64,000 bases of DNA from Bradyrhizobium elkanii USDA 76 (GTDB lineage: Bacteria; Pseudomonadota; Alphaproteobacteria; Rhizobiales; Xanthobacteraceae). The notes below the pieces were generated by a model that was not told where the DNA came from, ran no database searches, and worked only from the letters and a program-made list of their open reading frames with translations. Where the stretch lies: positions 8,796,001-8,860,000 of the forward strand of contig NZ_CP066356.1 of the NCBI RefSeq assembly GCF_023278185.1, written 5' to 3'. Positions 25,112 to 36,999 of the stretch are shown here, piece by piece (positions within the stretch are counted from its first letter, which is position 1; each line of letters begins with the position of its first letter). A program made the translations under genes and the position numbers.

Positions 25112-25750
25112 TTATTTTTGCTGCGCCGTCATCACGATGCGGACCAGATCGGCGGCGTTGCGCGCGCCGAGCTTCTTCATGATGTTGGCGCGGTGATCCT
25201 CGATCGTGCGCGGACTGATGCCGAGGTGGCGCCCGGCTTCCTTGTTGGAGGCGCCCGCGGTGAACTGCTCGAGCACCTCGCGCTCGCGGCGGGTGAGCGG
25301 CTCGCGACCCGGGAAGTGCAGCGCGGCGATCCGCGACGCCGACGTCTCGGCCTGGCGCCTGGTATAGGCGTCGATCGCCTCATTCAGACGGCTCACGATC
25401 TCGTTGCCGCGGAACGGCTTCTCGATGAAGTCGAGCGCGCCGTTCTTGATGGCGCTGACCGCCATTGCGATGTCGCCCTGACCGGAGATCATGAAGATCG
25501 GCGCCGGATAATCCTCGCCATGCAGCTCTCTCAGGATATCGAGGCCGGATTTGCCGGGAATATGCACGTCGAGCAGGATGCAGGCCGGCGTCCTGCTGCG
25601 CGCCACCGCGAGCAACGCCGCGCCGTCCGCAAAGCAGATCACCTTGTAACCAGCGGTCGAGAGGACCACTGAAAGCGTCTCGCGAACGGCAGGATCGTCG
25701 TCGACTACAAAGATTTCCCCGCGCGGAGCGCCATTCTCAACCATATGCAT
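25112..25750 (-). CDS. FixJ-family two-component response regulator
   Basis: A 212-residue regulator. Receiver domain at about 12-125 with the acidic pair VVDDDP, phospho-acceptor Asp61 (ILLDVHIPG), a conserved Ser in FMISGQGD and the Lys in FIEKPF. A C-terminal LuxR-type helix-turn-helix follows (LTRREREVLEQFTAGASNKE; GISPRTIEDHRANIMKKLGA). No sensor kinase is adjacent, so it is an orphan in this window. Upstream, at 25819-25834, is the perfect inverted repeat CCCGTA-TTTG-TACGGG, which recurs near the chemotaxis and flagellin genes and before another LuxR-type gene; autoregulation and control of motility is my inference. A second start two codons later is possible. Confidence 0.93.
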   Translation of the reverse strand: MHMVENGAPRGEIFVVDDDPAVRETLSVVLSTAGYKVICFADGAALLAVARSRTPACILLDVHIPGKSGLDILRELHGEDYPAPIFMISGQGDIAMAVSAIKNGALDFIEKPFRGNEIVSRLNEAIDAYTRRQAETSASRIAALHFPGREPLTRREREVLEQFTAGASNKEAGRHLGISPRTIEDHRANIMKKLGARNAADLVRIVMTAQQK

Positions 25751-25818: not shown

Positions 25819-25834
25819 CCCGTATTTGTACGGG
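25819..25834. promoter_or_regulatory. Operator candidate CCGTA-N4-TACGG, site 1 (perfect)
   Basis: CCCGTA-TTTG-TACGGG, a perfect 6+6 inverted repeat in the gap between the divergent FixJ-like and 102-residue hypothetical genes. It lies 68 bp from the former start and 63 bp from the latter. Its TTTG centre is the reverse of CAAA found in sites 2 and 3. Confidence 0.65.
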
Positions 25835-25897
25835 ACGTCCGCTTAACGCACAAGTAGCACCGCGTTCCCTAAAAGTGGGGGCAGTGGAGAAAGATGC

Positions 25898-26206
25898 ATG
25901 GAAAATGCAGCGGCGGACCGCGTTGCAGTGCGCTTGGACGAGGGCAATGATCCCACCGGTCTGATCGTGACGGACCTGGTCGCGCTGATTGGCCATGTTC
26001 AGGCGAGCCTGCGGCTGATCGAAGCGGTGATTGCGCGCGAGGCCGTGCTGGCCGAGCGTCAGGCCGACACTGACATCGTCGTTCGCGACAACGTTACCCC
26101 GCGCGGCCTCACAGCGTCCACCGCCCTGAAGGCCTGCGATGCCGGCCTCGGCGCGGCGCTCGATCGGCTGCACGATTCCGGGGCACCGGCGCGCCTGCTG
26201 AACTGA
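25898..26206 (+). CDS. Hypothetical 102-residue protein
   Basis: Not recognised. Mostly helical, no signal peptide or membrane segment. The centre VTDLVALIGHVQASLRLIEA followed by VIAREAVLAERQADTDIVVR suggests a helical hairpin. The start ATG has GTGGAGAAAG upstream, a good ribosome site. It is divergent from the FixJ-like regulator with an inverted-repeat operator between them, which suggests shared control; a role linked to chemotaxis is only a guess from position. Confidence 0.68.
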   Translation: MENAAADRVAVRLDEGNDPTGLIVTDLVALIGHVQASLRLIEAVIAREAVLAERQADTDIVVRDNVTPRGLTASTALKACDAGLGAALDRLHDSGAPARLLN

Positions 26207-26339
26207 CCCACCGCAACCGACAGTTCGGCCCAATCACCTCGATTGTCGACGCCCAACCCATCAGGCGGCGATCTGTTCCACGCATCGTCCGAATTAGCCG
26301 CGGGCCTTGCCCGCCGGGTCGGATCAGGCCTTCTTGACG

Positions 26340-26657
26340 TCAGGCCCTGACCCGCTCTTCGTCGGCGGACGATCGCCGCTTGCTCGGCTTGCCCTTGAGG
26401 AAGCTGATGTCCATTTCGGTGCCGTTGACGCGGACCAGTTCGCAGCGGCGATAGGCAAGTCCGGTCGAGGACAGCAGGAGGAAAAACTCCTTCAGGTTGA
26501 GCCCCTGAATGGAACCTTCGACCGTCAGAGACGCATCGGTGTCGGAGATGGCATTGAGCTGGCAGTCGCGCCGCCAGGTGCCGTCGATGGCCATGATGCA
26601 GACATCGACGCCCCGGCTGAAGGTGACCCGCTCAATGGATTTGCCGTCCTCGGTCAT
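26340..26657 (-). CDS. PilZ-domain protein
   Basis: A 105-residue single-domain protein. The start (SIERVTFSRGVDVCIMAIDG, then TWRRDCQLNAISDTDASLTV) fits a PilZ beta-barrel, with R-x-x-x-R replaced by a looser basic start and a later D-x-S-x-x-x-like segment (SDTDASL). Family members bind cyclic di-GMP; the incomplete RxxxR motif makes binding uncertain. It is the last gene of the chemotaxis operon, 3 bp after cheR, so it probably links c-di-GMP or a structural signal to motility. Charged tail KGKPSKRRSSADEERVRA. Confidence 0.75.
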   Translation of the reverse strand: MTEDGKSIERVTFSRGVDVCIMAIDGTWRRDCQLNAISDTDASLTVEGSIQGLNLKEFFLLLSSTGLAYRRCELVRVNGTEMDISFLKGKPSKRRSSADEERVRA

Positions 26658-26660
26658 CGC

Positions 26661-27518
26661 TCAATATCCGACCGCCATGGCAGGCTTCGGCATGGCGAGC
26701 CCGCCCCGCACTCCGCTCGGCCGGTACAGGCCACGCCGCTCGGGAAGCGGCTTGAACGTGTCGGTCAGGCCGACCACGGTTTCGGCGGCGCCCAGCACCA
26801 GGAAGCCGTCGGCCTCCATCAACCGGGCGAGGCGGTTGAAGATGTTGATCTTGGTGTCCTGATCGAAATAGATCAGCACGTTGCGGCAGAAGATCACGTC
26901 GAACGTGCCGAGCTGTGAGAAATCGTGCAGCAGATTGAGCTGGCGGTGCTGGACCATCGCGCGCAACTCGGGATTGACCTGCCAGAACTCACCCGACTGC
27001 TTGAAGTACTTGACCAGCATCTGGATCGGCAGCCCGCGCTGCACCTCGAACTGGCTGTAGATGCCGGCCTTCGACTTCTCCAACACCTCCTGCGACAGAT
27101 CGGTCGCGATGATCTCGATGCGCCATCCGGCAAGCGCCGCGCCCATTTCCTTCAGGCACATCGCCAGCGAATAGGGCTCCTGGCCGGTCGAGCCGGCGGC
27201 GCACCAGATCCGGACGCTGCGGCGCGCGGCGCGTGCCTTCAGCACCTCCGGCATGATGGTGTCGCGGAAGTGCTCGAACGGCACTTTGTCGCGGAAGAAG
27301 AACGTCTCGTTGGTGGTCATGGCCTCGACCACCTGGACGGTGTGCGCGGACGAGCCCGCCTTGATCTTGGCGACCAGGTCGGGGATGCCGGACAGGCCGC
27401 TCTTGCGCGCCAGCGGCAGCAGGCGGCTCTCGATCAGATATTGCTTGTCCGCGGACAGATCGAGACCGGACTGGTCCTTCAGGAGCTTACGCAGATACTC
27501 GTAGTCGGGGGGCGTCAC
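26661..27518 (-). CDS. cheR: Chemotaxis protein methyltransferase CheR
   Basis: A 285-residue CheR. The N-terminal helical domain (YEYLRKLLKDQSGLDLSADK) and the SAM-binding domain are both present: TNETFFFRDKVPFEHFRDTI, RIWCAAGSTGQEPYSLAMCL and FDVIFCRNVLIYFD. It methylates glutamates of chemoreceptors with S-adenosylmethionine. No TPR extension, so the short classical type. It lies between cheY and the PilZ gene in the minus-strand operon. No cheB or receptor gene is present here, so the receptors and the demethylase must be elsewhere. Confidence 0.96.
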   Translation of the reverse strand: MTPPDYEYLRKLLKDQSGLDLSADKQYLIESRLLPLARKSGLSGIPDLVAKIKAGSSAHTVQVVEAMTTNETFFFRDKVPFEHFRDTIMPEVLKARAARRSVRIWCAAGSTGQEPYSLAMCLKEMGAALAGWRIEIIATDLSQEVLEKSKAGIYSQFEVQRGLPIQMLVKYFKQSGEFWQVNPELRAMVQHRQLNLLHDFSQLGTFDVIFCRNVLIYFDQDTKINIFNRLARLMEADGFLVLGAAETVVGLTDTFKPLPERRGLYRPSGVRGGLAMPKPAMAVGY

Positions 27519-27555
27519 GGGAGCCTCACAAGGGACTGAATGATGAAACTGGGTG

Positions 27556-27945
27556 TCAGGCTTCGGCCGACGCGTCGAGCGCCAGCAGGCCCACTTCCTG
27601 GAATTTCGCGATCACGATGTCCTTGTCGAACGGCTTCATGATGTATTCGTTGGCGCCGGCATGCAGCGCCCGCGAGATGTGGTCTATGCCGTTCTCGGTG
27701 GTGCAGAACACGACCTTGGGCTGATCGCCGCCGGGCATGCGGCGGAGCTGCACGAGGAATTCGAAGCCGTCCATGACCGGCATGTTCCAGTCGAGCAGCA
27801 CGGCATCCGGCAGCGCGCGCTTGCAGGCTTCGAGCGCGACCGCGCCGTCCTCGGCCTCGATGACGGTGAACTCCATTCCTTCGAGGATGCGGCGCGCGAT
27901 CTTTCGCACCACGCCGGAATCGTCGACGACGAGACATGTCTTCAT
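27556..27945 (-). CDS. cheY: Single-domain response regulator CheY
   Basis: A 129-residue receiver without output domain: VVDDSGVVRKIARRILEGME at the start, phospho-acceptor Asp52 in VLLDWNMPVMDGFEF, Thr in VVFCTTENG and Lys in IMKPFDKD. It takes phosphate from CheA and either binds the flagellar switch or acts as a phosphate sink. Ribosome site AAGGAGGCCGACAC upstream of the ATG. Between cheW and cheR. Confidence 0.96.
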   Translation of the reverse strand: MKTCLVVDDSGVVRKIARRILEGMEFTVIEAEDGAVALEACKRALPDAVLLDWNMPVMDGFEFLVQLRRMPGGDQPKVVFCTTENGIDHISRALHAGANEYIMKPFDKDIVIAKFQEVGLLALDASAEA

Positions 27946-27988
27946 GTGTCGGCCTCCTTGTGGAATCCACCGTCTCCGCGGTGGAGTG

Positions 27989-28474
27989 TTACGCTGCAGC
28001 AGCTGTCCTTGGATCGGTCTTGGGCACCAGTTCGAGCACGCGATCGACGTCGAGGACGACCATGAGCTGGCCGTCGAGGCGGTGGACGCCGCCGGCGAGC
28101 TTGGCCATGCGGGGATCGAGGTTGACCGGGTTGTCCTCGCGGCTGTCGTCGGGCAGCCGCAGCACCTCGCCGATCTGGTCGATCAGCAGGCCATAGGATT
28201 CGCCGCGCTGGTCGACGCCGACCGCCATCGGCAACTGGCCGTCGTCGGCCTTCGGCAGCCCGAGCCGGGCGCGCATGTCGACCACGGTGACGATGCGGCC
28301 GCGCAGATTGAGCACGCCGGCGATCTCGCTGGAGGCCAGCGGCACCCGCGTCAGCCGCTCCGGCATGAACACGTCCTGCACCCGCGAGATCGGCAGCCCG
28401 AACAGCTGGCCGCCGATCACGGCGGTGACGTATTCGGCCATCGCGCCTTCACTGGTTTCGGTCTTGCTGGTCAT
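27989..28474 (-). CDS. cheW: Chemotaxis coupling protein CheW
   Basis: A 161-residue CheW: AEYVTAVIGGQLFGLPISRV, LNLRGRIVTVVDMRARLGLP and DDSREDNPVNLDPRMAKLAG. It links chemoreceptors to CheA. I start at the ATG before TSKTET because AAGGAA lies 8 nt upstream; an ATG six codons earlier is also in frame but has no ribosome site. Only 22 bp separate it from the end of cheA, so it is translated in the same operon. Confidence 0.95.
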   Translation of the reverse strand: MTSKTETSEGAMAEYVTAVIGGQLFGLPISRVQDVFMPERLTRVPLASSEIAGVLNLRGRIVTVVDMRARLGLPKADDGQLPMAVGVDQRGESYGLLIDQIGEVLRLPDDSREDNPVNLDPRMAKLAGGVHRLDGQLMVVLDVDRVLELVPKTDPRTAAAA

Positions 28475-28496
28475 CAATTCTGTTCCTTGCATCCGG

Positions 28497-31265
28497 TCAG
28501 GCCGCGCGGCGCAGTTCGGCGGTCTGCTCTTTCAGCGCCGCGATCAGCCCGGGACGATCGAACTTGGCGACATAGTCGTGGAAGCCGGCCTGCCGGCCGC
28601 GCTCGATCGCCGCCGGCGACACCATCGCCGACAGCGCGATGATCGGCAGCTGGTTGAAGTTGTGGTCGCTGCGGATGTTCTCGGCGAACTCGAAGCCGTT
28701 CATCTCGGGCATCTCGATGTCGGTCAGCACGACGTCGAAGCTCTGCCCCGAACGCAGCGCGGCGAGCCCTTCCTGCGCGCCGCCCGCGGTCCGCACCTTG
28801 TAGCCGGCGGCCTTCAAGACCGGCGCCAGCATGTTGCGGAAGAACGCCGAGTCATCGACCAGCAGCACCGACTGCGCCGAGGCCGACGGGCGCATCTCCT
28901 TGCGCGAGAACCAGTCGGCGAACGCCATCGGCAGGAAGTGGCCGACGTCGATCACCTCGGTGGCCTGGCCCTTGATCACCGCCGAGCCGAGGATGCCGTC
29001 CTGGCTGCCCGCGACCTCGATGTTGAGCCGCTCCTCGACGATGTCGATGATCTCGTCGACCACGAGCCCCATCGAGCGGCCGTCGTCGGCGAACACCAGG
29101 ATCGGCTGCGAGCCCTGGTTCTGCACCTCGACCCCGGCCATCTGCACCAGCGGCATCAGCTGCTCGCGGTACTGCACCATGTAGCGGCCGTTCGAGAGCT
29201 CGATCTTGTCGGTTGCGATCTCTTCCAGCCGGGTGACGAGGCCGAGCGGCACCGCCTTGGGCTGCGAGGAGCCGGCGCGGAACACCAGCAGCGAGGTCAG
29301 CTGCTCGCCGCTATTGGCGTGCGCGCTCGCGCTGTCGTCGGCGAGGTCATGGGCCGAGGAGCCGGACGCGCCGAGCGCTTTCGCAATGCCGTTGGGGTCG
29401 ATGATCATGATGACGGCGCCATCGCCCAGAATGGTGTTGCCGGAGAACATGTCGATGTGCCGCAGCTTGGTCGACATCGGCTTGACCACGATCTCCTCGG
29501 TGTGGAACACGCCGTCGACCACGATGCCAAAGGTCTGGCTGCCCACCTGCGTGACCACGATGAAGCCGTTCTCGGCGTCGGTGGAGGTCGCGCCGTCGTC
29601 GATCTTCAAGAGCTTCTTGAGATGGATCAGCGGCAGCAGCTTGTTGCGCAGCCGCAAGACCGCGGTGTCCTTGATCCGCTCGATGCGGTGCTCGGAGTTG
29701 GCGCGGGCCCGCACCAGCTCGACGACAGACAATTGGGGAATCGCAAAACGGTCGCCGCCGGCTTCCACGATCAGCGCGGAGACGATCGCCAGGGTCAGCG
29801 GGATCTTGATGGTGACGGAAGCGCCCTCGCCGGCCACGCTCTTGATGTCGATGGTGCCGCCGATCTGGTCGATATTGGTGCGCACCACGTCCATGCCGAC
29901 GCCGCGGCCCGACACCGAGGTGACCTGCGCGGCGGTCGAGAAGCCCGGCGCGAAGATGAACTTGTGGATCTGGGCCTCGGTCATCTTCTCGAGCTCGGCC
30001 TCGGTGACGAGACCGTTCTGGAGCGCCTTGGTCTTGATCCGCTCGGTGTTGAGCCCGCGGCCATTGTCGGCGATGCAGATGATGATGTGGCCGCCTTCGT
30101 GATAGGCCGAGAGGCGAATGGTGCCCTGTTCCGGCTTGCCGGCGGCGACCCGCTCGGCGGTGGTCTCGAGCCCATGATCGGCGGAGTTGCGCACCATGTG
30201 CGTCAACGGGTCCTTGATCAGGTCGAGCACCTGGCGGTCGAGCTCGGTGTCGGCGCCGTGCATCTCGAGCTCGATCTGCTTGCCGAGTTCGCCGGAGAGA
30301 TCGCGAACGATGCGCGGCAGCTTCTGCCAGGCATTGCCGATCGGCTGCATGCGCGTCTTCATGACGCCTTCCTGCAGCTCGGCGGTGACGTTGGAGAGCC
30401 GCTGCAAGGGCACCTTGAACTCGGTGTCCTCGTTGCGGCGGGAGATCTCCAGCAGCTGGTTGCGGGTCAGCACCAGCTCGGAGACCATGGTCATGAGGTG
30501 TTCGAGGGTGTCGACATTGACCCGGATCGACTGGTTGGCGATCTTGTCGCCTTCCTGGACATCTTCACCCGCGGCCTTGCGGGCGGGCTTCTTCACAGCT
30601 TCGGCGGGCTCGGCCGCGGGCTTGGCGGCCGGTGCCGGCGCGGCGACTTCGGTCTCGGTCTCGCGGAAGGCGCGCTCGAGCTCGTCGAGCGAGACCTCGC
30701 CCGGACGCAGCGGACGCTCCAGCGTCTGCACCACGAGGGTGCCTTCGGTCGCTGCCTGGGTCATCGCCGCCTGCACCGGCGGAGCCTCGACGACCGGCAC
30801 GTCTTCTTCAGCGGCGGCTTCGCCAGCAGCCGGCACCGACTGCGTCGAGCCTGACGATATCGACTGCGGCGAATCGGACATCGCCGCCATGCCGTGCTCG
30901 ACCATCGCCTCGAGCTGATCGATCAGATCGCGGTCGTTGCCTTCAGGCTCGGCCTCGGTCGCCTCAAGGCCGCCAAGGATCTCCTTGATGCGGTCGATCG
31001 AGGACAGGATCAGCGTTACGGCTTCCGCCTTCACCGGCATGCCGTCGCGGAATTTGCCCATCAACGTCTCGCCGGCATGCGCCAGCGCCTCGAGCCGCGG
31101 CAGCCCGAGGAAGCCGCAGGTCCCCTTGATGGTGTGCACCAGGCGGAAAATGTTATCCAGGATCTTCGCGTTGTTCGGATCCTGCTCGAACTGCACCAGC
31201 TGGTTGTCGACCGTATCCAGGCTCTCGCTGCTCTCCGTCAGGAACTCGCGCAACAGATCGTCCAT
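28497..31265 (-). CDS. cheA: Hybrid chemotaxis histidine kinase CheA with C-terminal receiver
   Basis: A 922-residue CheA. Order: Hpt with phospho-His44 (LVHTIKGTCGFLGLPRLEAL), an Ala/Pro/Glu-rich linker at about 130-245, dimerisation and ATPase core (DPLTHMVRNSADHGLE; ISVAD-type ICIADNGRGLN; GRGVGMDVVRTNIDQIGG), a CheW-like domain, a second CheW-like region (about 665-790), and a receiver at about 800-915 (LLVDDSAFFRNMLAPVLKAA; Asp in VVLTDIEMPEMNGFEF). No CheY-binding P2 domain is evident. The built-in receiver may act as phosphate sink or feedback. It heads the operon cheA-cheW-cheY-cheR-pilZ. Upstream at 31347-31364 is one copy of the shared inverted repeat. Confidence 0.96.
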   Translation of the reverse strand: MDDLLREFLTESSESLDTVDNQLVQFEQDPNNAKILDNIFRLVHTIKGTCGFLGLPRLEALAHAGETLMGKFRDGMPVKAEAVTLILSSIDRIKEILGGLEATEAEPEGNDRDLIDQLEAMVEHGMAAMSDSPQSISSGSTQSVPAAGEAAAEEDVPVVEAPPVQAAMTQAATEGTLVVQTLERPLRPGEVSLDELERAFRETETEVAAPAPAAKPAAEPAEAVKKPARKAAGEDVQEGDKIANQSIRVNVDTLEHLMTMVSELVLTRNQLLEISRRNEDTEFKVPLQRLSNVTAELQEGVMKTRMQPIGNAWQKLPRIVRDLSGELGKQIELEMHGADTELDRQVLDLIKDPLTHMVRNSADHGLETTAERVAAGKPEQGTIRLSAYHEGGHIIICIADNGRGLNTERIKTKALQNGLVTEAELEKMTEAQIHKFIFAPGFSTAAQVTSVSGRGVGMDVVRTNIDQIGGTIDIKSVAGEGASVTIKIPLTLAIVSALIVEAGGDRFAIPQLSVVELVRARANSEHRIERIKDTAVLRLRNKLLPLIHLKKLLKIDDGATSTDAENGFIVVTQVGSQTFGIVVDGVFHTEEIVVKPMSTKLRHIDMFSGNTILGDGAVIMIIDPNGIAKALGASGSSAHDLADDSASAHANSGEQLTSLLVFRAGSSQPKAVPLGLVTRLEEIATDKIELSNGRYMVQYREQLMPLVQMAGVEVQNQGSQPILVFADDGRSMGLVVDEIIDIVEERLNIEVAGSQDGILGSAVIKGQATEVIDVGHFLPMAFADWFSRKEMRPSASAQSVLLVDDSAFFRNMLAPVLKAAGYKVRTAGGAQEGLAALRSGQSFDVVLTDIEMPEMNGFEFAENIRSDHNFNQLPIIALSAMVSPAAIERGRQAGFHDYVAKFDRPGLIAALKEQTAELRRAA

Positions 31266-31346
31266 GGATAGGTCCCCTCAAGGTGCTACGGAACGCTCGC
31301 CGTGAATCGATAACTTGGCCGACTTCACGGCGACGTTAATTTTGCC

Positions 31347-31364
31347 GTCCGTGCAAATACGGAC
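31347..31364. promoter_or_regulatory. Operator candidate, site 2, upstream of cheA
   Basis: GTCCGT-GCAAAT-ACGGAC: perfect 6-bp arms, fitting CCGTR-CAAA-TACGG with one variant base. It lies 82 bp before the cheA start in a 389-bp gap (31266-31654) that otherwise holds only the flagellin terminator and no gene. Confidence 0.55.
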
Positions 31365-31595
31365 GATGAAGCCCTTCAGCAGTTCGACGACGCATCACGA
31401 CATCACGGCCAGCCTCACAAGGACAGGCCTTACCACCCGGACGGGAAAGAGGCCGTTCCATCGGTCATCGCAATTTGAACTAATTGGAATTGAGGACTGC
31501 TAAGTCACGCGAAACGTTCGCGCCATGACGACCGCCTGCATCAGAACGCGATCGCTCATTGGTTGAACCCGGCGGGATGGTCAAGCGCAGCCAAA

Positions 31596-31625
31596 GCGAA
31601 AGGCGGCGGAGTTTCCTCCGCCGCC
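31596..31625 (-). terminator. Rho-independent terminator of the flagellin gene
   Basis: Perfect 10-bp stem GGCGGCGGAG (31602-31611) / CTCCGCCGCC (31616-31625) with a 4-base loop. On the minus strand it is followed by TTTCGC. It lies 30 bp after the flagellin stop codon. Confidence 0.78.
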
Positions 31626-31654
31626 TCGATAGTCGATGTCTGTCGCGGCTACGC

Positions 31655-33181
31655 TTAGCGGAGCAGCTGCAGAACGCTCTGCTGAGACTGGTTGGCCAGC
31701 GCCAGCGCGGACACCGCGATCGACTGGCGGGTCGACAGCGCCTGGCTGTTGGCCGCTTCCTCGTTGGTGTCGGCCAGCGTCAGGTTGGACGAGCCGGTCT
31801 GCAGCACGTTGATCAGGTTCTTCGAGAAGTCCTGGCGGATCTGCACGATCGACAGGTTCGAACCGAGGGTCGAAGCCTGGGTGCGCAGCAGGCCGCTCGC
31901 GTTGTTCAGCGTCTTCAGCGTGGCGTTGGCCGAAGCGTTGTCCACGAAGTCCGTGCCGGCCACCAGCTTGGTGAGGTTGAGGCCGGTGGCGTCGAAGGTC
32001 ACGCCCTGGATCTTCAGCGTCGAGGAGCCCGTCTCGTTGAAGGTCAGCTTGAGCTGATCGCCATTGAGCAGGTTGATGCCGTTGTACGAGGCGTCCTGGG
32101 CGGTCGTGGTGATCTGGTCCAGGATGTTGTTGTACTGGTTGACCAGGTTGGCGCGGTTCGCCAGCGCGGTCGGGTCCTGCACCGGAGCGCTGCCCGTGAG
32201 GCCGTTGAACAGCTTGCCGGCGCCGGCAGCCGTGCCGCCGATCGTGCCGATGGTCGCCGAAGCGGCATCGTTGGTGGTGCTGATGGTGAGCGCACCGGCC
32301 GCGCTGAGCGAGGCCTGCAAGTTGTTGGCCGAAAGCGCGTTGTTCAGGTCGTTGAGCGACTTCACCTGGCCTGCGCCGGTGCCGAAGGTGATGCTGGTGG
32401 CGGTGCCGTTGCCGGTTGCGCCGATGGTCAGCGTGAGGCCGCTCAGCGGGCTGCCGCCGGCGGAGCCGCTGGCGGTCGCCGATGCACCGGCCGGGAAGCC
32501 GAGCTGCGACGCATCGCCGGAGCTGAAGGTGTCGACCGTGACAGCATCCGAAGCGCCAGCGGTGTTGGTGCTGGTCAGAACCAGATCTCCGCTGCCGTTG
32601 AGCGTGGCGTTGACCTTGGCGCTGGTGCCGACCTGGGTATTGATCGCGCTCGTAATCTGGGCCGCGGTGTAGGATGCGCCCTTGGTCAGCGTGACGGTCT
32701 GGCTGTTGACCTTGAAGGTCAGGTCGGTTGCCGCCGCCGTCAGGTCGAGCGTGGCGAGCGCAGACGTGCCGGTGAGAACGGCGTTGCTCGCAGGAGCGGC
32801 CGTGCCGAGCAGGTTGTCAGCGGTCGCGCCGGGGATCGCGGCGGTCGTCACCGACGACTTCGCGGAATAGCCGACCGCAGCCTGCAGGGCCTGGTTGGCG
32901 ACCGACTTGGCGCTGTCGACGAGCTTCTGCAGCGAGGTGATGCCGGTGTTGGCGGCCTGCAGCACCTGCACGCCGTTGCCGATGCCGTCCAGCAGGTTGT
33001 TGATGTCGCTGGCGCGGTTGTCGAGCGACTGCGCCGTGAAGAAGTTGGTCGGATTGTCGAGAGCAGTGTTGACCTTCTTGCCGGTGGACAAGCGGTTCTG
33101 CGTGGTGGCGAGCAGGTCAGCGGTCGACTGCAGCGAAAGCAGGTTTTGACGGACCGATGCCGAAAGAACGATGCCGGACAT
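31655..33181 (-). CDS. fliC: Flagellin
   Basis: A 508-residue flagellin. The N-terminal helical domain starts SGIVLSASVRQNLLSLQSTA and has LDNPTNFFTAQSLDNRASDI; the C-terminal domain ends RQSIAVSALALANQSQQSVL plus QLLR, without aromatic tail. The centre (about 130-360) is a Thr/Ala/Ser/Gly-rich variable region with a flagellin-IN-like repeat (DLTFKVNSQTVTLTKGASYT). It polymerises into the filament after export by the flagellar type III system; no signal peptide. The start ATG is preceded by AGAAGGG. It has its own terminator and an upstream inverted repeat (33289-33302), so it forms a separate transcript from cheA. Only one flagellin is present here. Confidence 0.95.
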   Translation of the reverse strand: MSGIVLSASVRQNLLSLQSTADLLATTQNRLSTGKKVNTALDNPTNFFTAQSLDNRASDINNLLDGIGNGVQVLQAANTGITSLQKLVDSAKSVANQALQAAVGYSAKSSVTTAAIPGATADNLLGTAAPASNAVLTGTSALATLDLTAAATDLTFKVNSQTVTLTKGASYTAAQITSAINTQVGTSAKVNATLNGSGDLVLTSTNTAGASDAVTVDTFSSGDASQLGFPAGASATASGSAGGSPLSGLTLTIGATGNGTATSITFGTGAGQVKSLNDLNNALSANNLQASLSAAGALTISTTNDAASATIGTIGGTAAGAGKLFNGLTGSAPVQDPTALANRANLVNQYNNILDQITTTAQDASYNGINLLNGDQLKLTFNETGSSTLKIQGVTFDATGLNLTKLVAGTDFVDNASANATLKTLNNASGLLRTQASTLGSNLSIVQIRQDFSKNLINVLQTGSSNLTLADTNEEAANSQALSTRQSIAVSALALANQSQQSVLQLLR

Positions 33182-33288
33182 ACTGGATACCCTTCTGGAT
33201 GAACACGATTGACGCGACGCCGTAAATTTCGCACGGCGACCCACGCCACACTGGTCCGTCCGCGCTACCCGTTCGTTAAAGGGCTGGT

Positions 33289-33302
33289 CCGTACAAATAC
33301 CC
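33289..33302. promoter_or_regulatory. Operator candidate, site 3, upstream of flagellin
   Basis: CCGTA-CAAA-TACCC: left half perfect, right half with two mismatches, same CAAA centre as site 2. 108 bp before the flagellin start. The 551-bp gap 33182-33732 serves divergent flagellin and Crp/Fnr genes; I see no gene in it. Confidence 0.45.
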
Positions 33303-33732
33303 AGAATGGCCTTGCCGGTGATTCGACCGGCGGCCGGCGCGATGGTTGACCGCGGCAGCGCACGTTCGGCGCCGGACCGACGTCATGGCCGCGAATTTCC
33401 TGCGCATGTGCAGGACTTGCGACATCCCGGCGCGGCCGGCGCGGCGCGTCGATAGCCGGCGTTGCCAGTCATCACGATGCAAAGTCCGGTGAGGAACAGA
33501 GTTAATGGAAATCAATAAATGAGAGACAAATTCGCGCCCGTGTCGAACGCCGCGCGAATCGACGTCGATCACCGGTGCCGGCGACGGCCACGTCGTCTGC
33601 CCTCTAGAGGGTATAGTTTCAACACTACAACCCTTGTGCAATTGGACAGGCAAGCTATGTTCGCAATCATTCCACACGCCAAGAGTAGGTGATGCGAGAC
33701 CGTAAGTGCTCCCGCCCTCGGCAGGAGCACCA

Positions 33733-34443
33733 ATGTCCGCGGTATCGCGTCCGCCCAATCGTCTGTTGCAAGCACTTCCCTCCACGGAGTACGCGCAGCT
33801 TCATCCCCTTCTGGAAACCATCGATCTGACCAGGGAAACGGCTCTCGCCGATGCCGGCGCGCCGGTGCAGCGGGTGTATTTTCCGCATAGCGGCGTGGTC
33901 TCGATGATGATCAATCTGTCCGACGGGCAATCTGTCGAAATTGCCACCATTGGTCGTGACGGCGTCGTGGGCGCGTCTGCCGCCCTGCACGAGCGGCCGC
34001 TGCTTGCCGACGCAATTGTTGTGGTGCCAGGCTCGGCCTCGATGGTGCGTGCGGAGGATTTCCGCGAGGCAGCAGATCGCAGCGCGGATTTCCGGACCCT
34101 GGTTGCGCTCTATGAGCAGGCGCTGATGGCGCAGACGCAACAATCCGTCGCCTGCAATGTTTCCCATCCGGTGGAGGCGCGGCTGTCACGATGGCTGCTG
34201 CGCGCTCGCGATTTGTGCGGCAGCGAGGCATTGCCGCTGACCCAAGAGATGCTGGCGCAGATGATCGGCGTCCGGCGCAATGCGGTTTCGATTGTCGCAC
34301 ATGGGTTTCAGCAGGCCGGCATCCTGCGTTACAGCCGCGGTCATATCGAGATCACCGATATCGATGGGCTGCGGAAGGCGGCGTGTGAATGCTACACGAC
34401 GGTCAAGGCGCACGCCGAACAATTGATCGGGCCGGAAGATTGA
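33733..34443 (+). CDS. Crp/Fnr-family transcriptional regulator A
   Basis: A 236-residue regulator. The N-terminal cNMP-like beta roll (about 20-130: VQRVYFPHSGVVSMMINLSD; VEIATIGRDGVVGASAALHE) lacks the Arg/Glu phosphate-cassette typical of cAMP binders and the Cys cluster of FNR, so the ligand is unknown. Winged helix at about 165-225: LPLTQEMLAQMIGVRRNAVS with recognition helix RRNAVSIVAHGFQQAGILRY. Start: ATG with CAGGAG 5 nt upstream. The next gene is a clear paralog in tandem; the pair share RPPN, RNxVSxVAH and YSRGHIEIT blocks. Confidence 0.9.
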   Translation: MSAVSRPPNRLLQALPSTEYAQLHPLLETIDLTRETALADAGAPVQRVYFPHSGVVSMMINLSDGQSVEIATIGRDGVVGASAALHERPLLADAIVVVPGSASMVRAEDFREAADRSADFRTLVALYEQALMAQTQQSVACNVSHPVEARLSRWLLRARDLCGSEALPLTQEMLAQMIGVRRNAVSIVAHGFQQAGILRYSRGHIEITDIDGLRKAACECYTTVKAHAEQLIGPED

Positions 34444-34508
34444 TCGCGCCGCGAATTCTTTAACATAGGATAATGTCGAGCCCGCCCCCGCGACAATACG
34501 TGCTTCTC

Positions 34509-34547
34509 AATGGAACCCGGACATGTTTCCATTGGAACCAGGACATG
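34509..34547. promoter_or_regulatory. Pair of 17-bp direct repeats before the second Crp/Fnr gene
   Basis: AATGGAACCCGGACATG (34509-34525) and ATTGGAACCAGGACATG (34531-34547) are 22 bp apart start to start, two helical turns, with 15 of 17 bases equal. They lie 85-123 bp before the start codon, suggesting co-operative binding of a regulator on one face of the DNA. Confidence 0.5.
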
Positions 34548-34631
34548 CCAGAATAGGTTGCAGGGACGCCCAGCTGCACGCGTCAACTCCACTGACCAGA
34601 GACAAACTTTGCCGGCAGGCAGGAGGTTGCT

Positions 34632-35351
34632 TTGGATAAGGTTTCGCGACCACCCAACGGATTCCTGGCGTCGCTTTCGGCAAGCGATTTCGAATTGATT
34701 CGGCCGCATCTGCGGACGGTCGACCTCGCGGCCGATTCAGTCCTGGTCGAGACCGACGAGGTGCTCAAGCGGACATACATGCCGCACAAGGGCGTGATCT
34801 CGCTGGTGGTCAAGCTGGCAAGAGGCGAGCGCGTGCAGGTCGCGATGGTCGGCCGCGACAGCATCTATGACGCATTCGCCCCGCTCGTCGAAGGGCCTGT
34901 TCTCAACAACGCAGCGGTGCTGGTGCCCGGCATCGCCTCGACCGTGGAGCTCGAGCCATTGCGCGCAGCTGCCGGCCAGAGCCCGACGCTTCGCGCGAGA
35001 TTGATCCGGCATGGGCTCGCCGTCTACGCCCAGATCCAGCAGACCGCCGGCTGCAACGCCGCGCACACCGTGGAGTCACGGCTGGCGCGATGCCTGCTGC
35101 ACACACGCGATCTCTCCGGCAGCAACAAGATCGTCCTGACGCAGGAGGCGATGGCGCAGATGATCGGCGCGCGCCGCAACAGCGTGTCGCTGGTCGCGCA
35201 TACCTTGCAACAGGCCAATTTCATCCACTACAGCCGCGGGCACATCGAGATCACCAACGCCGAGGGGCTGATCAAAACCGCGTGCGAATGCTACGCCGCG
35301 GTCAAGGCGCAATATGCGGGGCTGCTGAGTTGTCAGGAAGTCGGTCGCTAG
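34632..35351 (+). CDS. Crp/Fnr-family transcriptional regulator B
   Basis: A 239-residue paralog of the preceding gene. Beta roll LKRTYMPHKGVISLVVKLAR and VQVAMVGRDSIYDAFAPLVE; winged helix IVLTQEAMAQMIGARRNSVS followed by LVAHTLQQANFIHYSRGHIE. No cAMP phosphate-cassette Arg or FNR Cys cluster is visible. The start is TTG with a perfect AGGAGG 5 nt upstream (34621-34626), much better placed than any ATG. Tandem duplication with divergence is likely; direct repeats in front of this copy but not the first suggest the two are now controlled differently. Its stop codon is followed within 10 bp by a dispersed repeat. Confidence 0.9.
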   Translation: MDKVSRPPNGFLASLSASDFELIRPHLRTVDLAADSVLVETDEVLKRTYMPHKGVISLVVKLARGERVQVAMVGRDSIYDAFAPLVEGPVLNNAAVLVPGIASTVELEPLRAAAGQSPTLRARLIRHGLAVYAQIQQTAGCNAAHTVESRLARCLLHTRDLSGSNKIVLTQEAMAQMIGARRNSVSLVAHTLQQANFIHYSRGHIEITNAEGLIKTACECYAAVKAQYAGLLSCQEVGR

Positions 35352-35360
35352 AGTTCGTTG

Positions 35361-35416
35361 TTTTGCCGCGTTTTCTTTTGCGCGAGCCGGCACCGCTTCG
35401 CTCGAAAGCGCTCTGA
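35361..35416. repeat. GCGTTTTC…GAAAGCGC dispersed palindrome, copy 2
   Basis: TTTTGCCGCGTTTTCTTTTG, CGCGAGCCGGCACCGCTTCG, CTCGAAAGCGCTCTGA. Same order of blocks as copies at 7922-7970 and 35798-35843. Lies directly after the second Crp/Fnr gene. Confidence 0.65.
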
Positions 35417-35427
35417 CCGCCGTGCAA

Positions 35428-35443
35428 GCCGTACTTCTACGGC
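35428..35443. promoter_or_regulatory. Operator candidate, site 4 (perfect)
   Basis: GCCGTA-CTTC-TACGGC, perfect inverted repeat containing CCGTA-N4-TACGG, 64 bp before the start codon of the 82-residue hypothetical gene. Confidence 0.6.
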
Positions 35444-35506
35444 GTGCGATTTTCACCGTCGGATAACGCTGCCTCCGCACAGTTGTGTGGACGCACGGGG
35501 GAGCCG

Positions 35507-35755
35507 ATGTTCACGTACCAGACGACCGACCGGAAGGAAGCCCGGCGCTTCCGCATGGCCCAGTTCAACGGCCGAACCGCGACCATACGGTCGGCCGGCG
35601 CGACCGTCACCGGACGCGTGCGCGCGATCGTCGAAAGCAAGTCTGGCGCGACGGCGGCATGGGTGGTCACGATCGTTCCGGATGAGCCGAAGGCGGCCGC
35701 GCCGGCCGCGCGGCCCGCGCCGCGCCTGTGCTTCGCCGCGGAAGACGATTTCTGA
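35507..35755 (+). CDS. Small hypothetical protein
   Basis: An 82-residue protein starting MFTYQTTDRKEARRFRMAQF. Short beta-rich centre (NGRTATIRSAGATVTGRVRA, IVESKSGATAAWVVTIVPD) and an Ala/Pro-rich tail. Not recognised; the centre looks like a small barrel of the kind seen in RNA- or c-di-GMP-binding proteins, but no motif supports that. Start: ATG with GGGGGAG upstream; an upstream in-frame ATG (35444) overlaps the inverted repeat at 35428-35443 and is unlikely. The presence of the CCGTA-N4-TACGG site places it in the putative motility regulon. Confidence 0.62.
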   Translation: MFTYQTTDRKEARRFRMAQFNGRTATIRSAGATVTGRVRAIVESKSGATAAWVVTIVPDEPKAAAPAARPAPRLCFAAEDDF

Positions 35756-35797
35756 GAACCGGGTTCTAACGAACCGAACGGGGTTCTGGACTGCAGT

Positions 35798-35843
35798 TTT
35801 GACGCGTCTTCTTGACGCGAACCACTTCGCTTGAAAACGCTCT
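35798..35843. repeat. GCGTCTTC…GAAAACGC dispersed palindrome, copy 3
   Basis: TTTGACGCGTCTTCTTGACG, CGAACCACTTCGCTTGAAAA, CGCTCT. It abuts the stop codon of the minus-strand LuxR-type gene, between two convergent genes. Confidence 0.7.
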
Positions 35844-36459
35844 ATGCGGAATGCAGCAAGGCCTTGCGAACGAGATCGGCGGTGTTGCGCGCGCCGAGCT
35901 TGCGCATGGCCTCGGCGCGATGGCTCTCGAACGTGCGCGGGCTGATATTCATCCGCAGCGCGCCCTGCTTGTTGGAATAGCCGTCGCTGATCAGGCTGAG
36001 CACTTCACGTTCGCGCTTGGTCAACGGTTTGCGGCCGGCTTCCGGCGCGAACATGACATCCGGCGACCGAGAGGCTGCCGGCTTGTCGTCGCTCGGCGGC
36101 TTGAGATCGGCGGCCGGGACGGCATTGGGATAGAGGTCGGAAATCTGCTTCAGCATCGCGGACACGCGCTCGGTCTGCTCGAGCGCGTTCTCGATCACCT
36201 GCCGCAGATAGACGCCATTGCCGGGCGCGTGCGCGAACTGCTGACTGTGCTGTTTGAGCTCGTTCATATAGAGCAGCAGCGCCGTCACCGGCCCATTGAA
36301 CTGCCGGACGATCGCGGCACCGGCGTCGGCCTGCGGCCGCGGCGCTGCGACTCCCTGAGTCTCGAGCGGCTGCGGCTCAGGCGGCTGCGGCTCGAGCGTC
36401 GCGGTTCCACCCATCCATGCCGGAAGGCGCGCCTCGGCTCGATTGTCATGTTGCGTCAT
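35842..36459 (-). CDS. LuxR-type regulator with a degenerate histidine-kinase-like dimerisation helix pair
   Basis: A 205-residue protein. The C-terminus is a LuxR/FixJ-type helix-turn-helix (LTKREREVLSLISDGYSNKQ; NISPRTFESHRAEAMRKLGA), closely similar to the FixJ-like regulator at 25.1 kb. There is no receiver domain. Instead residues about 48-108 (AIVRQFNGPVTALLLYMNEL … LRQVIENALEQTERVSAMLK) read like the two-helix DHp/HisKA domain of sensor kinases, with the phospho-His position occupied by Asn in QFNGP. This suggests a dimeric regulator sensing through a kinase-like scaffold, or one that pairs with a response regulator (inference). The N-terminal 45 residues are Pro/Gln-rich. A perfect CCGTA-N4-TACGG site lies 49 bp upstream. 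Confidence 0.85.
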   Translation of the reverse strand: MTQHDNRAEARLPAWMGGTATLEPQPPEPQPLETQGVAAPRPQADAGAAIVRQFNGPVTALLLYMNELKQHSQQFAHAPGNGVYLRQVIENALEQTERVSAMLKQISDLYPNAVPAADLKPPSDDKPAASRSPDVMFAPEAGRKPLTKREREVLSLISDGYSNKQGALRMNISPRTFESHRAEAMRKLGARNTADLVRKALLHSA

Positions 36460-36507
36460 AAGTATGGTTTACCAAAGGTGAACTTGTGGCCGCGTTAACA
36501 CGGGACT

Positions 36508-36521
36508 CCGTAAAACTACGG
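36508..36521. promoter_or_regulatory. Operator candidate, site 5 (perfect)
   Basis: CCGTA-AAAC-TACGG, 49 bp before the start of the LuxR-type gene at 36459, consistent with autoregulation. A weaker match, CAGTA-TTCT-TACGG, lies about 105 bp further out at 36614-36627. Confidence 0.62.
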
Positions 36522-36999
36522 GTGACGCAACTGTGACCTCGGGCCCCGACCTGCCAAGCAGGCGCAGATTACCGCTGATTTGGCAACGAATCTCGCATAT
36601 TTGAGTCGAATTACAGTATTCTTACGGGACGGGTGGGCTTGGGTGCCATCGGCGAGCCAGCAGTTTCCGGCCCCCTGGTTCCGGATTGAAAGGGCCCGAA
36701 TTTCGCGGCCCGGCATCGCCTCAGGGGCGCCGGAGCCGAAGGAATTTCTGCAGGAACCGCCCCGAAAGAACGAACCTGAACCACCAATACGCCATTCGTC
36801 GGGTCGTCATCGATCATCCCTCTCGACATCGGGATAGTGTCGGCATACCGCATGCGGGCGCGCGCACCTATGAGACGGTTCACATCAACCGAGCATCGGG
36901 TGCGCATTGGGCCGGCATCGGATCAGGCGAACGTCAATTTACAGCCCCGACAGGCGTCGCGATGATCGCCGCCTCTCGATCAGCAATAAGGGCGCGGCC
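36522..36999. other. Gene-free divergent upstream region
   Basis: About 480 bp between the LuxR-type gene (minus) and a secreted hypothetical (plus). Besides the weak operator match at 36614-36627 I see no gene, terminator or strong repeat. Confidence 0.5.

Follow-up and report, generated by a model that had tools for sequence, protein, structure and literature searches.

A palindrome with a second half at a fixed spacing is a probable promoter element of chemotaxis and motility genes in Bradyrhizobium

INTRODUCTION

Among the described systems closest to the one considered here is the FixLJ/fixK operator of Sinorhizobium, Bradyrhizobium and Rhodopseudomonas, for which one study gives the FixJ sites TAAGTAATTTCCCTTA and GTAMGTAG (PMC4999443). 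Another is AcfR of Azorhizobium caulinodans, a FixJ-family regulator whose deletion lowers swimming (PMC7945327). Here we describe a 64,000-nucleotide stretch of Bradyrhizobium elkanii USDA 76 (contig NZ_CP066356.1, positions 8,796,001 to 8,860,000; the window), in which an inverted repeat, CCGTA-N4-TACGG, is shared by five sites in a block of motility genes. The boxes of FixJ-family regulators of the StyR/TodT type are likewise inverted repeats with the same N4 spacer, but their half-site and function are different.

The block encodes two regulators that invite comparison with these systems. One, the FixJ-like protein, resembles FixJ in having a receiver (REC) domain and a GerE-type helix-turn-helix (HTH) domain, and its relatives outside the genus adjoin FixL-like PAS kinases in 5 of 12 listed loci; it differs in that no FixL is adjacent in the window and that the targets are chemotaxis genes. 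AcfR is similar as a FixJ-family regulator needed for normal swimming; the likeness is stated here at the level of family, and the term 'binding site' is missing from the main text of that report (PMC7945327). The other, which we call the DHp-HTH protein, has the GerE-type HTH of quorum-sensing LuxR proteins but not their autoinducer-binding domain. Titles and abstract beginnings in the open-access literature searched make no mention of such an operator, and spellings of the motif or of two of the sites had no match there. The operons that such an element might serve are of current interest: a 2026 study of B. diazoefficiens reports that the cheA coding sequences are not the source of the unequal roles of che1 and che2, which go instead with locus and promoter, and describes the drivers of their differential regulation as not yet known (PMC13390405).

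RESULTS

The palindrome is half of a longer element

CCGTA-N4-TACGG occurs in perfect form at 25820-25833, 35429-35442 and 36508-36521 of the window, and in degenerate form at 31349-31362 (1 mismatch) and 33289-33302 (2 mismatches); thus, all five repeats listed in an earlier note on this DNA were found. That note had called three perfect copies striking, with 0.06 expected by chance. The rarity holds and the figure is lower still: the mean expectation is 0.01, and three copies were reached in none of 100 dinucleotide shuffles. The degenerate copies are not justified by mismatch number alone, because 25 matches with up to 2 mismatches lie in the window compared to 13.1 expected. Nor is the bare palindrome enriched genome-wide, since the 9.5-Mb genome holds 21 perfect copies compared to 38 for a reversed control pattern. 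What is unusual is the clustering and placement of the copies, rather than their genome-wide number: 3 of the 21 lie inside the motility block's 10.7 kb compared to 0.024 expected (a post hoc figure). The palindrome thus marks a real local cluster, as the note had it, but is not a specific signature by itself.

Alignment of the upstream regions revealed TTAAC beyond the palindrome, a second half that the earlier note overlooked while describing the palindrome half correctly. TTMAC lies exactly 9 bp downstream of the palindrome at all five window sites, flagellin included. Allowing up to 3 mismatches, CCGTANNNNTACGG-N9-TTMAC has 10 matches in the window compared to 0.69 expected, and the five best (0, 0, 0, 1 and 2 mismatches) are exactly the five sites of the note. 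We accept the degenerate sites because the full element picks the same five:

Element 1, 25820..25847, forward strand: palindrome 25820-25833, N9, TTAAC 25843-25847; palindrome end 64 bp from the small open reading frame (ORF), palindrome also 69 bp upstream of the FixJ-like gene
Element 2, 31335..31362, reverse strand, before cheA: CCGTATTTGCACGG-N9-TTAAC, 83 bp to the start codon
Element 3, 33275..33302, reverse strand, before flagellin: GGGTATTTGTACGG-N9-TTAAC, 107 bp to the start codon; weakly conserved
Element 4, 35429..35456, forward strand, before the small hypothetical gene: CCGTACTTCTACGG-N9-TTCAC, 64 bp to the start codon
Element 5, 36494..36521, reverse strand, before the DHp-HTH ('atypical LuxR') gene: CCGTAGTTTTACGG-N9-TTAAC, 48 bp to the start codon

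We examined the spacing in 270 sequences (2.53 Mb), many of which are orthologous, so that copies are not independent. CGTA-N4-TACG is followed by TTAAC 97 times at a gap of 9, and no other gap between 3 and 16 gives more than 3 occurrences. With TTMAC required and the spacer of the palindrome varied from 0 to 9, there are 194 matches for spacer 4 and at most 1 for any other; the control palindrome with the second half has no match in this set. The box at +9 is TTAAC before the DHp-HTH gene in 39/40 loci, the small ORF in 12/12, cheA in 32/33 (TTAAG in the remaining one) and flagellin in 4/9. Before the small hypothetical gene, it is TTCAC in 29 loci, TTCAT in 6, TTTAG in 5 and TTTAC in 1, such that TT followed by C or T occurs in all 41. 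Among rows with TT at +9, all groups of genes have T as the second base of the spacer, read with the gene. The element at the FixJ-like gene is directed away from that gene and, where a small ORF is seen, towards this ORF (TTAAC on this side in 17/18 loci, TTACC in the other one); the site that the note placed before both the FixJ-like gene and a divergent gene is present, but its second half is on the small-ORF side and not the FixJ side.

Two observations concern the surrounding sequence. Just after TTAAC at the small ORF, GCACAAGTAGC (25848-25858) is also conserved in loci of the genus and exceeds what a -35 box would need; it is possibly a second site. The CtrA box has the pattern TTAA-N7-TTAA. 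By eye, a second TTAA 7 bp after the first is found in none of the five window elements. Two loci near a gene for a Fis-type HTH protein (L094 and L110; L numbers denote fetched loci and G numbers genomes) have GGTTAACGAAAGGTTAA just downstream of the palindrome, a TTAA-N7-TTAA stretch that we take to resemble a CtrA box.

The site is conserved before orthologous genes

The first set of 41 loci consists of the window and the orthologous block fetched from 40 other genomes of the genus, out of the 56 others with a DHp-HTH match in a 60-genome draw. We scored the best match within 350 bp upstream; scans left out alignments starting beyond residue 60 and upstream stretches shorter than 60 bases (150 bases in the second set, below). 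The region around the FixJ-like gene was also taken from 18 genomes that belong to the family but to other genera. The target genes, other than those of the two regulators, and the named controls from the block are:

25898..26206, forward strand: small ORF, 102 amino acids (aa), no Pfam match; target of element 1 by polarity
28497..31265, reverse strand: cheA (Hpt, H-kinase_dim, HATPase, CheW and receiver domains); heads cheA-cheW-cheY-cheR
31655..33181, reverse strand: flagellin gene
35507..35755, forward strand: small conserved hypothetical protein, 82 aa
33706-34443 and 34632-35351, forward strand: two Crp-like regulator genes (crp1, crp2), within the block and without a site
26661..27518, reverse strand: cheR-like gene, named from sequence reading alone; no site directly upstream

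We found the site before the DHp-HTH gene with at most one mismatch in 39 of 41 loci (21 perfect, 18 with one mismatch, 1 with two, 1 without), before the small hypothetical gene in 41/41 (39 perfect, 2 with one mismatch), before cheA with one mismatch in 33/33 and, within the genus, before the FixJ-like gene in 14/14 (13 perfect, 1 with one mismatch). The small divergent ORF has 11 perfect sites, 1 with one mismatch and 1 missing among 13 loci; flagellin has 4 with one mismatch, 5 with two and 1 missing among 10. Since the Crp-like genes are inside the block but lack a site, they serve as internal negative controls: 4 of 39 crp1 upstream regions have a match with at most two mismatches (1 perfect, 3 with two), as do 4 of 38 for crp2 (1 and 3), three of these four places being common to crp1. 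Other controls were similarly poor in sites: cheR (1/20, one mismatch), a glycosidase gene (2/18, two mismatches) and the gene divergent from DHp-HTH (4/23). In a second set of 88 loci (80 from named records), which overlaps the first in species, sites with at most one mismatch precede the DHp-HTH gene in 75/80, the small hypothetical gene in 80/80, cheA in 43/43 and flagellin in 14/37, compared to 1/73 for each of crp1 and crp2. Thus, the shared site is conserved before orthologues of the motility-block genes and nearly absent before neighbouring genes. This bears out the note's claim of a site shared by motility-region genes, and the lack of conservation that it named as a possible refutation was not seen.

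Other features of the block are listed below. Second copies comparable to the sixth palindrome gave 20 matches in 19 of the 41 loci, and the tandem Crp-like regulators (33706-35351) are themselves conserved in the block with the element nearly always missing.

36614..36627, reverse strand: sixth, weaker palindrome (1 mismatch) farther upstream of the DHp-HTH gene, without the TTMAC half
27989..28492, reverse strand: cheW-like gene, named from sequence reading alone
27556..27945, reverse strand: cheY-like receiver gene

Two regulators of the block are candidate binders

25112..25750, reverse strand: FixJ-like response regulator, REC and GerE HTH, phospho-acceptor Asp61 by position
35842..36459, reverse strand: DHp-HTH regulator, 205 aa, FixL-type DHp hairpin and FixJ-type GerE HTH

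The FixJ-like protein has an intact receiver domain (PF00072, E 9.5e-27; Asp61 and Lys111 by position) and a C-terminal GerE HTH (PF00196, E 4.5e-19). No FixL gene lies beside its gene in the window, where the neighbours are a dehydratase gene and the small ORF; FixL elsewhere in the genome was not searched for. The relatives that adjoin FixL-like PAS kinases (L060, L061, L063, L067 and L069) are 61-68% identical to it. In four genomes of three sister genera (76-81% identity), NCGTA-N4-TACGA-N9-TTAAC stands upstream of the FixJ-like gene, with no DHp-profile match in the fetched stretch and, in two of the four, no DHp-HTH match at E<=1e-22. In more distant genera, none of the 14 loci L060-L073 carries a site before the FixJ-like gene when up to 2 mismatches are allowed, and in the 8 of these that were aligned the recognition helix differs too. 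That helix reads IEDHRANIMKK in the genus, IEYHRANIMKK in the four sister-genus genomes and IEVHRARIMEK in 6 of the 8 aligned distant relatives. The recognition helix of the FixJ-like protein thus changes in step with the operator sequence. A search of the genome with the FixJ-like protein gave 44 matches at E<=1e-8, among which the highest identity after the protein itself was that of the DHp-HTH protein (59% over 61 HTH residues); the others were at most 40% identical, but mostly over longer alignments.

The DHp-HTH protein had been labelled an atypical LuxR regulator. We rejected a quorum-sensing LuxR identity: a Pfam scan found no autoinducer-binding domain, and the architecture is DHp-HTH. 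Profile matches in the PDB are to the FixJ HTH (1x3u, E 1.6e-12) and, as the sole kinases, to FixL constructs (4gcz, E 0.043); hhalign aligned the protein to FixL-like kinases with probability 96.8 and E 2.6e-10. Pfam HisKA was found at E 0.038, below its cut-off, and PAS and HATPase domains were not found in the same scan. When we ran the DHp profile against 16,182 ORFs (E up to 0.01), the matches outside its own family were only FixL-type kinases and two sister-genus DHp-HTH homologues. Where a typical FixL-like kinase reads GAALAHELNQPLTALMLYLQ, the DHp-HTH family mostly reads GAAIARQLNGPLTALLLYMN, and the phospho-His position (Arg52) is Arg in 40 of 41 proteins and His in 1 (L042:5079-5690). 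The AlphaFold model has two long helices (44-74 and 79-109) and a GerE HTH; Foldseek returned no match at E<=0.001 with this model, and the 50 rows shown were LuxR/GerE-type regulators. The recognition helix is invariant in the family and closely related to that of the FixJ-like protein. Relatives, among the best 120 of 2696, are named only as HTH regulators and are mostly from Bradyrhizobium where named. From these comparisons, the DHp-HTH protein is apparently a FixL-type DHp without its phospho-His, joined to a FixJ-type HTH. We also noted a distant DHp-HTH homologue followed directly by a PAS-HisKA-HATPase-receiver kinase (L169:2932-5602), and a DHp-HTH copy with two in-frame stops (G190:C158:4379-4981).

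Genomes that lack one or both regulators

The DHp-HTH gene was found in 183 of the 195 genomes of the draw. Five near-complete genomes have the FixJ-like gene without it (G031, G047, G226, G227 and G248); the palindrome before the FixJ-like gene is perfect in all five, with TTAAC at +9 in 4/5 and TTTAC in 1/5. In G031, moreover, a chemoreceptor gene still has the full element upstream, and palindromes remain before a DUF6894 gene and the small hypothetical gene. Perfect palindromes per Mb number 2.15 in genomes with both genes (n=53), 1.52 with the FixJ-like gene only (n=5), 1.61 with DHp-HTH only (n=3) and 0.48 with neither (n=2, one of them 83% complete); the corresponding ratios of sites to control are 0.69, 0.63, 0.56 and 0.19. 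These figures, from classes covering 64 of the 195 genomes, ignore phylogeny. The class with both genes is the 60-genome draw minus genomes lacking a gene and G013 (partial DHp-HTH gene); G173 (4 sites), G219 (31), G234 (25) and G237 (26) were left out of the classes though both genes are present, and G223, whose FixJ-like match is 64%, was treated separately and has 0 sites in 3.4 Mb. The near-complete genome lacking both regulators, G052, has 5 sites, and the three with DHp-HTH and no FixJ-like match, possibly owing to assembly gaps (G006, G027 and G044), have 31 sites in 19.2 Mb. These densities fit binding by either protein, with the FixJ-like one being sufficient.

Sites outside the block

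We inspected 78 perfect sites outside the block: all 18 of the same genome, and 60 in five relatives, made up of the sites listed outside the block in G020, G008, G002 and G014 plus 5 of 22 in G043. These lie between genes in 12/18 and 49/60 cases, respectively, compared to 0/15 loci for the reversed control (first 15 of 38; coding fraction by the same caller 0.86), which is imperfect in that word composition differs between coding and intergenic DNA. Thus, the even spread with no promoter preference that the note named as refuting was not seen. Intergenic position is nevertheless weak evidence, because 4/5 sites are intergenic in G052, which lacks both regulators, and only 3/7 in a G031/G047 subset; as proof of an operator, it is weakened accordingly.

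TTAAC or TTCAC stands at +8 to +10 towards the gene in 5 of the 78, before chemoreceptor genes (L097, L137 and L142 by Pfam, L113 by similarity) and a DUF6894 gene (L141, TTCAC). The offset at chemoreceptor genes is +8 in L097, L113 and L142, +10 in L137 and +9 in L164; DUF6894 genes have the second half at +9 in L141 and L172, and a TTCAT box towards the gene in L096, L114 and L126, with a TTCAC pointing away in L114. One outside site of the same genome (L011) has TTGAC at +9. Chemoreceptor and DUF6894 genes are among the neighbours of outside palindromes, as are a GGDEF-EAL gene and a CheY-STAS operon that includes an HD-domain response regulator; the second half is missing before DUF1223, DnaJ, GGDEF-EAL, PAS kinase and PAS-chemoreceptor (L010/L145) genes and the CheY-STAS operon (TTAGG). 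Outside sites lacking the second half may be background.

Palindromes lie upstream of DUF6894-type genes in L096, L114, L164 and L172 (L114 and L164 by Pfam, the others by similarity); the one in L164 is next to chemoreceptor genes confirmed by Pfam, and the one in L096 to a chemoreceptor-like ORF that has an element of its own. The DUF6894/chemoreceptor loci may be a second locus of the regulon. A palindrome without the TTMAC half is also close upstream of a DUF1223-type gene in L089, L103, L118 and L076 (Pfam in L076).

DISCUSSION

We conclude that CCGTA-N4-TACGG-N9-TTMAC is probably a promoter element of a Bradyrhizobium chemotaxis and motility regulon, acting in activation and bound by the FixJ-like protein and, in most of the genus, the DHp-HTH protein. 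The repeat would be the operator half of this element. Dimers of proteins with a GerE-type HTH bind to palindromic sites, and activators belonging to this family are often positioned immediately upstream of the -35 box. A FixJ/NarL-type HTH dimer would thus bind the 14-bp palindrome, whose centre would lie near -52, about 1.5 helix turns upstream of TTMAC as a -35-like box, and would recruit RNA polymerase, acting mainly as an activator. The FixJ-like protein (25112-25750) is the most likely binder; in most of the genus, DHp-HTH (35842-36459) would act alongside it. The latter may dimerise through a FixL-type DHp unable to take phosphate in the usual way, and it may either recognise the same operators independently of phosphorylation or dock on the receiver of the FixJ-like protein. 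The binders proposed in the earlier note, the FixJ-like and LuxR-type proteins of the block, remain the best candidates on sequence grounds, as the site precedes both genes and accompanies the FixJ-like gene in sister genera. Feedback on the DHp-HTH gene is suggested, because element 5 precedes it.

Several results weigh against this conclusion. The element at the FixJ-like gene is directed away from that gene; in L185-L187, which have both genes, the palindrome there is perfect and the +9 box degraded, and in L189 (G173, also with both genes) the site is missing, with only the 4 sites in 5.0 Mb. Just upstream of the distant sister-genus DHp-HTH homologues in L168 and L169, no site is found when one mismatch is allowed, and the DHp-HTH model is weak overall (pLDDT 69.4, pTM 0.34). 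In the same genome, none of the 18 outside perfect sites has TTMAC at +9, including one 201 bp before a PAS-chemoreceptor gene (L010) that has no box, and we rejected the bare palindrome as a predictor of the regulon, given the control count. Sites in G052 are mostly intergenic without either regulator, the low density with neither gene comes from two genomes, and the density in the DHp-HTH-only genomes means that either protein could suffice, or that the FixJ-like gene was missed. A TA-containing -10-like hexamer about 20 bases beyond TTMAC is suggestive only, such that the -10 box is not firmly located. Finally, the published FixJ operators differ by eye from CCGTA-N4-TACGG (PMC4999443, PMC13327599).

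That last difference and the 44 genomic matches to the FixJ-like protein speak for a real operator of the same regulon that is bound by a regulator encoded elsewhere, whether another FixJ/NarL-type protein or one of a different family. We consider this unlikely, since the two candidate genes are both preceded by the site, which also stands before the FixJ-like gene in four genomes of sister genera, sites are few where both genes are missing, and the DHp-HTH protein is the closest in identity to the FixJ-like one over the HTH. If instead DHp-HTH were the sole binder and the FixJ-like protein incidental, the sites in G006, G027 and G044 would be explained, but not the perfect palindromes before the FixJ-like gene in the five genomes without DHp-HTH, nor the full chemoreceptor element and the other palindromes kept in G031; we regard this as quite improbable.

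We are somewhat more open to the idea that a repressor uses the site as its operator, or that the site functions in negative feedback rather than activation, although we doubt it: the two palindromes before the DHp-HTH gene in 19/41 loci and the element reading away from the FixJ-like gene agree with repression, but the fixed position upstream of the -35-like box, without overlap, at five different genes does not. It is very hard to credit chance palindromes, or an intergenic bias of TA-containing words. The control pattern is indeed as common as the palindrome genome-wide or commoner, yet chance does not account for a second half at exactly 9 bp, conservation before several genes and near absence before control genes.

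Returning to activation by the block's own regulators, we think that the shared element is probably read by these two, that both derive from an oxygen-sensing switch and that one is apparently a fusion of the two halves of this switch. The absence of a neighbouring FixL gene, together with the likeness of the DHp to FixL, suggests an origin from a redox or oxygen switch; it does not suggest that oxygen is sensed today. A more specific history is possible, but we hold it only tentatively: a FixL-FixJ pair would have collapsed by internal deletion, joining DHp (His to Arg) to the HTH, and the fusion and an orphan FixJ would share one operator and run a genus-wide chemotaxis regulon, with the dead DHp either dimerising the protein independently of phosphorylation or serving as a decoy docking site that tunes the receiver of the orphan FixJ.

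We regard the operator as new, though for a type of regulator that is familiar, and take the DHp-HTH protein to be a new architectural variant. Having a conserved element and two candidate regulators in front of a che operon, whether che1 or che2, opens the question of che regulation to testing. The DHp-HTH architecture, if true, would show a two-component system turning into a one-piece regulator.

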